Positions 27,924-39,208 of a DNA stretch of 46,674 bases are shown here, piece after piece (position 1 is the first letter of the stretch; every line of letters begins with the position of its first letter). The position numbers were made by a program, and so were the translations under genes. Source of the stretch: Clostridiaceae bacterium (lineage in GTDB: Bacteria; Bacillota; Clostridia; DSM-8532); contig JAAYTU010000075.1 of the NCBI GenBank assembly GCA_012523705.1, forward strand, positions 1 to 46,674. The letters are read 5' to 3'. The notes below the pieces were generated by a model, which ran no database searches, had not been told where the DNA came from, and saw only the letters and a list, made by a program, of their open reading frames with translations.

Positions 27924-28565
27924 ATGTTTGTAAAAAACAAAATGACTGCAAACCCGTTTACAATCTCCCCAGACCAGACGGTTCCGGAAGCTCATGAAAT
28001 AATGACTGTTAACGGTGTAAAACGCCTTCCGGTTATGAAGAATGGTAAACTTGTTGGTGTTGTATCAAAAGAAGATATTTTGCAGGCCTCTCCCTCCAAT
28101 GCAACCACATTCAGCATGGGTGAAATTACTTACCTGCTCTCTAAAATGAAAGTAAGTAAGATAATGAACAAAAATACTATTACTATTTCGTCCAGTGCTC
28201 TGTTAGAAGAAGCAGCAATATTAATGAGAGACAATAATGTCGGTTTCCTTCCTGTAGTTGATGATGAAAAGCTTGTAGGCATTATTACCGAGACTAATAT
28301 ATTTGATTCATTTATAGAATTATTAGGTTTTCGTGAACCGGGTACCCGTCTTACAGTCGAGGCTAAGGACGAGCCTGGAATAATGGCAAACCTAACTGGA
28401 ATCATCGGCGAATTTGGGGCTAACATTACTCATGTAGCAGTTTATAGAGGAGCTAACGGGAAGAGCTCTGTTGTTATAGGAATTAATTCTCTGAATACAT
28501 CAGAGATGGAAAAATCAATTGAAAGTCACGGCTATAAAATCCAGTATAAGCTTCAGAACAAATAA
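27924..28565 (+). CDS. CBS-pair and ACT domain protein, AcuB-like, last gene of the liv operon
   Basis: The 213-residue cytoplasmic protein has two CBS motifs (about residues 1-60 and 75-135: VNGVKRLPVMKNGKLVGVVS and NNVGFLPVVDDEKLVGIIT) and a C-terminal ACT domain (about 143-213: EPGIMANLTGIIGEFGANITHV). CBS pairs usually bind adenine nucleotides and ACT domains usually bind amino acids. Placed four bases after livF with AGGAGG before its ATG, it may sense branched-chain amino acids or energy state and adjust the transporter, but this is inference. AcuB-like proteins have also been linked to acetoin metabolism, with no such gene nearby. Confidence 0.87.
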   Translation: MFVKNKMTANPFTISPDQTVPEAHEIMTVNGVKRLPVMKNGKLVGVVSKEDILQASPSNATTFSMGEITYLLSKMKVSKIMNKNTITISSSALLEEAAILMRDNNVGFLPVVDDEKLVGIITETNIFDSFIELLGFREPGTRLTVEAKDEPGIMANLTGIIGEFGANITHVAVYRGANGKSSVVIGINSLNTSEMEKSIESHGYKIQYKLQNK

Positions 28566-28594
28566 GGGCATAATCTTTTATGATTATTATGATG

Positions 28595-28640
28595 AAGCTC
28601 CGCAATAGGCTTATTGACCGCGGAGTTTCTTATTTTATTA
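28595..28640 (+). terminator. Terminator of the liv operon
   Basis: AAGCTCCGC (28595-28603) pairs with GCGGAGTTT (28620-28628); the loop contains a smaller AATA/TATT stem. CTTATTTTATT follows. Confidence 0.8.
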
Positions 28641-28696
28641 TACGGCTTCAGGCTTTACACCGGGTTTGTTTTTTAATTCTATGTATAATCAACATT

Positions 28697-28725
28697 ACCC
28701 CATTTTTTCTGACTAATCCTTCGAA
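28697..28725 (+). promoter_or_regulatory. Possible SigI-type promoter before the small sigma-like ORF
   Basis: ACCCCA (28697-28702) and CGAA (28722-28725) resemble the C-rich -35 and CGAA-type -10 of SigI promoters, which usually precede sigI genes themselves. The distance is compatible with that class as I remember it. A TATAAT at 28684-28689 without a good -35 is a competing signal. Confidence 0.4.
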
Positions 28726-28748
28726 AGTATATACAGAGGGATGTTTAT

Positions 28749-28877
28749 ATGAGAGAAATAGATAAAAACGCCGTAAAGGCCCAAAAGGATAAAACCTATT
28801 TGGAAGAATTTATATCAAAAAACGAACCATTTATAATGAATACAGCTCATAAAACCCTTGGCTGTTTAGCCGTCTAA
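28749..28877 (+). pseudogene. Short ORF resembling the N-terminus of a SigI-family sigma factor
   Basis: The frame encodes 42 residues behind a good ribosome site (AGAGGG, nine bases before the ATG). Its segment LEEFISKNEPFIMNTAHKTL resembles the start of region 2 of SigI-like sigma factors, which carry an FI...PFI...A pattern at the same distance from the N-terminus. The reading frame stops at once, a strong terminator follows after about 25 bases, and no further sigma domain is found in other frames. It is either a remnant of a deleted sigI or a small functional peptide. No anti-sigma rsgI gene is nearby. Confidence 0.5.
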
Positions 28878-28900
28878 TATCATAAGCATGGACCTTAGAA

Positions 28901-28932
28901 GAAACGGGATATAATATCCCGTTTCTTTTTTA
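28901..28932 (+). terminator. Terminator after the small sigma-like ORF
   Basis: GAAACGGGAT (28901-28910) pairs with ATCCCGTTTC (28916-28925) around a five-base loop, followed by a run of six T. It is placed 24 bases after the stop codon, showing that the short ORF has its own transcription unit end. Confidence 0.88.
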
Positions 28933-28991
28933 TACTTGTATATCTAATAATAGTTTAGTAGGATTTAATTATAGATAAAGGAGTGGTTTTT

Positions 28992-29540
28992 TTGAACAGA
29001 TGCCCCTGGTGTGGTACCGATGAATTGTACATTAAATATCATGACCTTGAATGGGGTGTTCCTGTTCATGACGATAAGAAGCACTTTGAGTTCTTAGTTC
29101 TTGAATCTGCCCAGGCTGGCTTGAGCTGGATAACCATATTGCGTAAAAGAGAGAATTATCGGGCTGCCTATGATGGGTTTGATCCTAATAAGGTCGCCCA
29201 GTATGATGAAAAGAAAATTTGTGAGCTGCTTCAAAACGAAGGCATAGTCCGGAACAGAAGGAAAATCACTGCTTCAATCAATAATGCCCGCTGTTTTCTA
29301 GAGATTCAGAAGGAATGGGGTAACTTCGATAAATATATCTGGAATTTTGTAGATGGCACATCAGTCAAAGGCCGATGGACCGATTTGTCACAGGTCCCCA
29401 CTACCTCACAGCTTTCAGATAGGGTAAGCAAGGATTTAAAATCACGGGGCTTTACCTTTTTAGGAAGTACTATAATCTACTCCTATCTTCAGGCTACAGG
29501 CATTATCGATGACCACCTGACTACATGCTTCAAATACTAG
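28992..29540 (+). CDS. tag: DNA-3-methyladenine glycosylase I
   Basis: The 182-residue enzyme removes 3-methyladenine from alkylated DNA. With a TTG start at 28992, the zinc ligands fall at Cys4, His17, His175 and Cys179, the same numbering as Escherichia coli Tag. The start has AAAGGAG eight bases upstream, whereas the GTG at 28983 lies directly behind the same site. The motifs RCPWCG, YHDLEWG, FEFLVLESAQAGLSW and IVRNRRKI are typical. It stands alone and overlaps the converging membrane gene by 11 bases. Confidence 0.95.
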   Translation: MNRCPWCGTDELYIKYHDLEWGVPVHDDKKHFEFLVLESAQAGLSWITILRKRENYRAAYDGFDPNKVAQYDEKKICELLQNEGIVRNRRKITASINNARCFLEIQKEWGNFDKYIWNFVDGTSVKGRWTDLSQVPTTSQLSDRVSKDLKSRGFTFLGSTIIYSYLQATGIIDDHLTTCFKY

Positions 29541-37981: not shown

Positions 37982-39208
37982 TTATGTTTCTGATATAGTC
38001 TTGCCACCCTCTACCAGAACCTTACTGTTTGTAATTACTCCCGACATAATAGCCATAACCAGCCCTGTTACTATCAGCAGAAATTCAATGGCTATAACAT
38101 CGGCCAAAGGACCGAATATCAATATGCTCAAAGGCACCATGACGCTTTGTATCATATTAAATACACTGAATACTCTTCCTTGATAATCGGTTTCCACCTT
38201 CTGTTGTAATAATGCTATGGCCGTTGTATTAAACGCCGGAATAACAAGGCCGGCTATCATTGCAAATACAAGATAAAGCCAGAATACATTGACCAAACCC
38301 AGACCAATGGTCGCTATTCCAAATATCAAAATTGAAAAACCAATTGTATATATTTTATTTTTTAAACCGCCCCAGGCTGTCATAATGAGTCCGCCCAGAA
38401 TCATTCCACCGGCAAGTGCGACTTCAGCAAATGTAAGCCGCCAAACTTCCGGCCCGAAGCTCCGGGTCACCTGCAGGGGTGTTAAAAAGGCAACTGGTGA
38501 AACAAATATAAAAATAACAGCACAATAAATAAAGCAATCTCTGATAAATCTATAGTTAATAACAAATTTTAATCCTTCCCCTAAATCCTGAAAATATCCC
38601 TTGGGCTTCCTGGCTGTGGCTCTTTCGTGGGGGGGAACATGTACAAAAAGAAGTAATGTGATTATAGCAAAAGCAGCTGTAATTACATCAACAAAGAAAA
38701 CCACCTCAATAGATGCTACGCTGAGTAATGCACCACTAAGCATTGGAGATAAAAGCATTGCCATGGACTGAATAGTTCCATTCACAGCATTTACCTTAAC
38801 AAGCTTATCATCAGGCACGAATTGTGGTATAAAGGCATTCACGGCAGGAGTCTGGATGCTTGATCCCAGAGACCTGATTACTGATACTACAAAAAGAAGC
38901 CATAGCTTGTCATAGCCAATAAAAAACAGTACTGCCAATACCAAAGTTGCTAGGGCAATCAGAGCGTCCGATACTATTATCAGCATTTTACGGTTATGCC
39001 TGTCAGCCCACACTCCAGCAAAGGGAGAGAGGAAGAGAGTCGGTAAAAAACCGCAAATTATAGATATAGTCAGCATCATTCCTGATTGAGTATTTAATGT
39101 AATATACCATGTTATAGCAAACTGAACCAGAGACGAACCAAAAAGTGATATGGTTTGCCCAGCTAAAAACAACATTACATTCTTCTTCCAACAACGTTTA
39201 GTATCCAA
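37982..39208 (-). CDS. MFS transporter, EntS/macrolide-efflux type
   Basis: The 408-residue protein has twelve predicted membrane segments and the MFS loop motif FAGVWADRHNRKMLI between segments 2 and 3. The stretch SIQTPAVNAFIPQFVPDDKLVKVNAVNGTIQ is typical of the MFS_3 group (EntS and MefA-like exporters). It probably exports a drug or siderophore-like compound. The start is TTG at 39208 with GGAGG nine bases upstream. It is a single gene between repeat copy C and the divergent helicase gene. Confidence 0.88.
   Translation of the reverse strand: MDTKRCWKKNVMLFLAGQTISLFGSSLVQFAITWYITLNTQSGMMLTISIICGFLPTLFLSPFAGVWADRHNRKMLIIVSDALIALATLVLAVLFFIGYDKLWLLFVVSVIRSLGSSIQTPAVNAFIPQFVPDDKLVKVNAVNGTIQSMAMLLSPMLSGALLSVASIEVVFFVDVITAAFAIITLLLFVHVPPHERATARKPKGYFQDLGEGLKFVINYRFIRDCFIYCAVIFIFVSPVAFLTPLQVTRSFGPEVWRLTFAEVALAGGMILGGLIMTAWGGLKNKIYTIGFSILIFGIATIGLGLVNVFWLYLVFAMIAGLVIPAFNTTAIALLQQKVETDYQGRVFSVFNMIQSVMVPLSILIFGPLADVIAIEFLLIVTGLVMAIMSGVITNSKVLVEGGKTISET

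Follow-up and report, generated by a model that had tools for sequence, protein, structure and literature searches.

A 42-codon open reading frame lying between a CBS-ACT domain gene and the tag gene of a Clostridiaceae bacterium is, with a probability that we put at about 0.9, the remnant of a lost sigI-rsgI operon, left behind by ordinary gene loss. This frame (28749-28877, forward strand), here called the stub, is homologous to the N-terminus of the sigma factor SigI, stands where a related genome has its sigI-rsgI operon and is preceded by a promoter homologous to the one found there. In the assembly itself no SigI near the family cut-off is among the matches listed, and RsgI_M was not found. 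The window analysed is the whole stretch of 46,674 nucleotides, contig C44 of a source genome (G000) of 1.94 Mb in 146 contigs, which is 99.7% complete. The elements of the locus are the following:

27924-28565, forward strand: CBS-ACT domain gene (Pfam CBS and ACT), the syntenic anchor on the 5' side of the sigI site
28589-28633, forward strand: hairpin 3' of the CBS-ACT gene, seen by folding and likely its terminator
28697-28725, forward strand: SigI-type promoter, putatively autoregulatory, homologous and with the same spacing 5' of sigI in genomes G005 and G011
28735-28740, forward strand: ribosome-binding site AGAGGG, read from the sequence 5' of the ATG, with GAGG conserved in G005 and G011
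28749-28862, forward strand: sigI remnant, codons 1-38, with 67-68% identity to the SigI N-terminus of G011 and 58% to that of G005
28863-28877, forward strand: four tail codons (CLAV) and stop, non-homologous, after the proposed breakpoint, where the alignment with G005 and G011 stops
28882-28905, forward strand: possible scrap of rsgI, unproven, a local match to G005 rsgI
28897-28929, forward strand: intrinsic terminator-like hairpin (terminator scan and fold), unlike the rsgI terminators of relatives
28983-29540, forward strand: tag, DNA-3-methyladenine glycosylase gene (Pfam Adenine_glyco), the downstream anchor

The pattern of a SigI N-terminus that an earlier note on this DNA had seen in the 42 residues was confirmed by alignment. 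With the stub as query (E ≤ 0.1), three of the 61 genomes searched gave a match: G000 itself, G011 (residues 1-39, 67% identity over 39 residues, E 3.5e-12 per genome) and G005 (residues 1-38, 58% over 38 residues, E 8.7e-9 per genome). The truncated form is present in neither G005 nor G011, and G000 is its sole carrier among the 61 genomes. Against a profile of seven SigI proteins of the family, obtained from 10 entries above the TIGR02895 cut-off with G005 and G011 left out, the stub scored 13.5 bits, compared with 5.0 for the best of 2000 shuffles, and its frame ranked first among the 692 six-frame peptides of the window (13.9 bits, runner-up 4.0). On these sequence comparisons the likeness to SigI is beyond chance. 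It stops at codon 38, the last four residues having no counterpart in SigI. An NCBIfam scan of the 42 residues gave no match, hence none above the SigI family cut-off, and a Pfam scan gave only the unrelated HSM3_C, below its cut-off (15.5 of 25 bits); this silence is probably due to the stub being too short for the models.

The stub resembles the SigI (TIGR02895) and RsgI systems of B. subtilis and C. thermocellum in its 38 N-terminal residues, in its autoregulatory-type promoter and in standing at the place of such an operon in G005. It differs from them in being devoid of most of the sigma-2 domain, of the entire C-terminal domain and of an rsgI partner, and it is not a sigma factor. According to PMC10575876, recognition of the -10 element in the SigI open complex falls to residues 97-104 in SigI6 and 101-108 in SigI1, and contacts with the -35 element, with the flap tip and with RsgI are made by SigIC, the C-terminal domain. 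In an alignment by way of G005, the end of the stub falls at about residue 59 of SigI1; the frame stops before a sigma-2 domain with the -10-reading helix is completed, and SigIC is missing from it.

The promoter is composed of ACCCC (28697-28701) and CGAA (28722-28725), 25 bases apart from start to start, and the ACCC-to-CGAA spacing has this length in G000, G005 and G011 alike. The Bacillales SigI consensus in Table 1 of PMC4711584, ACCCCC--AA-15N-CGAA----T, has the same ACCC-CGAA distance. The T after CGAA is present in G000, and the AA of the extended -35 element is off its consensus place in G000, G005 and G011 alike. All three genomes have AT three bases past CGAA, a feature noted for SigI promoters in passages of PMC4711584 and PMC6056542. 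When the pattern ACCC-N18..20-TTCGAAANTAT was searched in the 14 genomes of the genus, it matched once in each of these three, always at the sigI locus, and nowhere in the other 11; no other promoter targets were found. The reversed pattern, used as control, gave 4 scattered matches in the 14 genomes against 3 for the real pattern, so the count proves nothing, and the case for the promoter lies in its position, alignment and spacing. By homology and its 25-base spacing the stub has the SigI-type promoter of a sigI-rsgI operon, as the earlier note had proposed from ACCCC...CGAA, the AA excepted; the good ribosome site that it had also reported is present as AGAGGG ahead of the ATG.

In G005 and G011 livF and the CBS-ACT gene are followed by a homologue of sigI, and in G000 the same pair is followed by the stub. 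The G005 SigI has 234 residues, and all 10 NCBIfam families listed for it are SigI models (TIGR02895 177 bits, cut-off 185). It precedes an rsgI gene with RsgI_N and RsgI_M, within which the contig ends. A further G005 contig, C184, starts with a comparable tail, RsgI-like and of low complexity, with a stop and a terminator, and continues with a small gene and an MFS gene, both reversed, and then tag; G005 looks to have kept sigI and all of rsgI, over two contigs. G011 (L024:2077-3330, contig C48) carries an in-frame SigI-RsgI fusion of 417 residues, in which SigI residues 1 to about 94 are joined to RsgI from the end of the membrane segment, apparently, by eye, at a shared GTA codon. This fusion has no SigIC, RsgI_N or membrane helix, and the sigI-rsgI locus was probably wrecked here a second time and in another way. 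In G001 (L025, contig C114, from 44632 downwards, minus strand) there is no sigI, and an 18-base scrap of the -10 region of the promoter lies after the CBS-ACT gene; its identity to G011 was reached by none of 300 shuffles of the G001 intergenic DNA. Neither sigI nor a promoter scrap is present at the locus in G002.

The CBS-ACT gene was found in 13 of the 14 genomes of the genus; G008, with no CBS-ACT match, has a different SigI with RsgI_M elsewhere. The gene order after the site is padR, HAAS, two SDR genes, MFS (reversed) and tag in G001 and G002, a shortened MFS gene and tag in G006, and tag alone in G007. The MFS before tag in G006 (L028, C36:14957-15565) matches residues 205-407 only, another sign of instability in this region. 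No sigI was found after the CBS-ACT gene in the stretches examined of the six other genus genomes, of which that of G004 extends only 248 bases there and that of G010 contains a run of N. Two of the 30 loci found with the CBS-ACT protein show sigI, those of G005 and G011, not all of the 30 reaching far enough downstream.

Searches of G000 as a whole were consistent with the loss of the system. With the G005 SigI as query, only the stub matched. TIGR02895 gave some match in all 32 genomes of the family, at least 9 of them above the cut-off; the best in G000 among the matches listed reached 42.0 bits against a cut-off of 185, and is presumably another sigma-70 protein. RsgI_M, present in 12 of the 32 family genomes, was not found in G000, and no rsgI adjoins the stub. 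A full sigI-rsgI pair elsewhere in the genome, which the earlier note had thought worth looking for, did not appear in these searches. The stub is shorter than its syntenic homologue, and no second copy of sigI was found in G000. Since no SigI near the cut-off is listed there, the promoter has very likely lost its sigma factor, and with that factor gone it would be silent.

The non-synonymous divergence (pN) of the stub is 0.16 to G011 and 0.25 to G005, that is 1.5 to 2.3 times the G005-G011 value of 0.107, compared with 1.4 to 1.6 times for the CBS-ACT gene, synonymous sites being saturated in the stub comparison. These ratios exceed those of the CBS-ACT gene by a little at most, so any relaxation is no more than slight. 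With one genome carrying the truncated form, a slight relaxation would fit a recent loss and would also be compatible with constraint. An open frame and a downstream hairpin that is near perfect and well placed also speak against a remnant.

As in other bacterial gene remnants (pseudogenes), one end of the gene and its upstream signals are left at the ancestral locus; we see no essential difference from these, and the stub has a neat hairpin downstream. The literature on SigI/RsgI pseudogenes and on the loss of sigma genes yielded nothing relevant among the matches listed. In the ancestor, sigI and rsgI would have formed an autoregulated operon situated 3' of the CBS-ACT gene. The lineage of G000 would then have undergone a deletion or a rearrangement, one of whose breakpoints fell after sigI codon 38. 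All of sigI beyond this codon, and rsgI almost in its entirety, would have gone, leaving the stub fused to DNA from upstream of tag, and the stop would have arisen in that joined DNA. Promoter, ribosome site and start would have been kept because all of them lie upstream of the breakpoint. The argument of the earlier note that simple decay would not be expected to keep these signals accordingly fails, as an intragenic breakpoint leaves them by default.

The hairpin at 28897-28929 is strong, with a T-rich tail (z -5.45; 0 of 200 shuffles fold as well). The earlier note had placed a terminator 24 bases after the stop; the hairpin is there, and by the terminator scan it begins 19 bases past the stop. 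It would have arrived with the joined DNA or arisen later. Its derivation from the old rsgI terminator was considered and rejected, the rsgI ends of G011 and G005 differing from it in sequence by eye. That note had also suggested a deleted sigI-rsgI locus that kept its ends. Synteny, homology and the promoter uphold the remnant and its ancestral 5' end; for the 3' end this does not hold, the terminator being unlike those of rsgI in G011 and G005. No hairpin like it was seen when the 300 bases ahead of tag were inspected in five relatives, and a string search of seven loci gave no source for it. Comparable hairpins, again with AGAAACGGG arms, are present at further loci of the genus (L103, L104, L107), and it looks like a common type of terminator. 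For the DNA between codon 38 and tag no convincing source was found in the relatives, the 24-base stretch at 28882-28905 being a possible rsgI scrap, whose local match to G005 rsgI was reached by 26 of 1000 shuffles.

The genes between the site and tag bear on the nature of the event. HAAS and a second SDR gene follow the sigI site in G001, G002 and G011, and neither was found in G000 (E ≤ 1e-20 and E ≤ 1e-40, respectively). An MFS gene like that before tag in G001, G002 and G005 lies in the window at 37982-39208, about 8 kb downstream of tag; its protein is 67% identical to that of G002, to which the proteins of G005 and G001 show 79% and 86% identity. This gene may have been moved here by a local rearrangement or may be a paralogue, and its presence weakens the idea of a single clean deletion running from sigI to tag, which the gene order of G001 and G002 would suggest. 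A single deletion may not be the whole story; deletion plus rearrangement would account for all of these observations.

An assembly artefact was also considered: a false join of sigI' with the region of tag in the contig, the locus being intact in the organism. The 146 pieces of the genome, the low-complexity 3' part of rsgI, at which the G005 assembly itself appears to break, and the MFS gene elsewhere in the window, like the one before tag in G001, G002 and G005, would all suit a misjoin. Against it, an assembly of such completeness lists no SigI near the cut-off and shows no RsgI_M on any contig, the HAAS and second SDR genes are missing from it too, and the CBS-ACT gene and tag lie close together on one contig in four relatives (G001, G002, G006 and G007). 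We regard an artefact as improbable. Still less credit can be given to the stub, with its strong hairpin ahead of tag, as a leader and terminator cassette shielding tag from transcription that starts further upstream; this is the least probable of the readings considered. A hairpin resembling a terminator already follows the CBS-ACT gene (-21 kcal/mol and z -3.09 in a fold of 28566-28640, 2 of 200 shuffles being at least as good), though the terminator scan does not list it, no Rfam family reached threshold across 28550-29050, and a sigI frame would be needless in such a role.

The 42 residues could also be made as an active peptide, a decoy that mimics sigma region 2 and binds the RNA polymerase core or disturbs other sigma factors: an open frame, a ribosome site, a promoter-like element and a terminator are all there, and non-synonymous divergence is raised slightly at most. 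The earlier note had offered a peptide competing with sigma region 2 as an option, and it finds no support here. Only 38 residues derive from SigI, ending before the -10-reading residues and SigIC, no cognate SigI that could drive the promoter or be competed with was found in G000, and of the three genomes matched among 61 the two others have no truncated form. We consider the decoy very improbable. An equally slender chance attaches to the head of the autoregulated operon, from promoter and ribosome site through the first helices of the sigma factor to the terminator, having been kept as a stand-alone gene for a short peptide, driven by another sigma factor once the sigma and anti-sigma factors were lost. 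For the remnant that we favour, the 42-residue frame would be without function.

The remnant of G000 can be placed among its relatives with a tree of LivF and the CBS-ACT protein from 13 genomes, the root being assumed. G000, G005, G011, G001 and G002 form a group set apart from the remaining genomes (support 100 with nucleotides, 99 with proteins); within this group G005, G011, G001 and G002 are together (99 and 68), as are G011 and G001 (79 and 87). By parsimony, the sigI-rsgI locus would have been present in the common ancestor of all five and have eroded separately. The differing end states and parsimony on this two-gene tree suggest that G000, G011, G001 and G002 each lost the locus partly or wholly, and the scrap in G001 and the blank in G002 suggest that its erosion recurs in the clade. 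Reading the stub as a remnant averts the false annotation of a small peptide gene in the window, and the clade offers a comparison of genomes with the system present and lost for asking what this SigI regulates.
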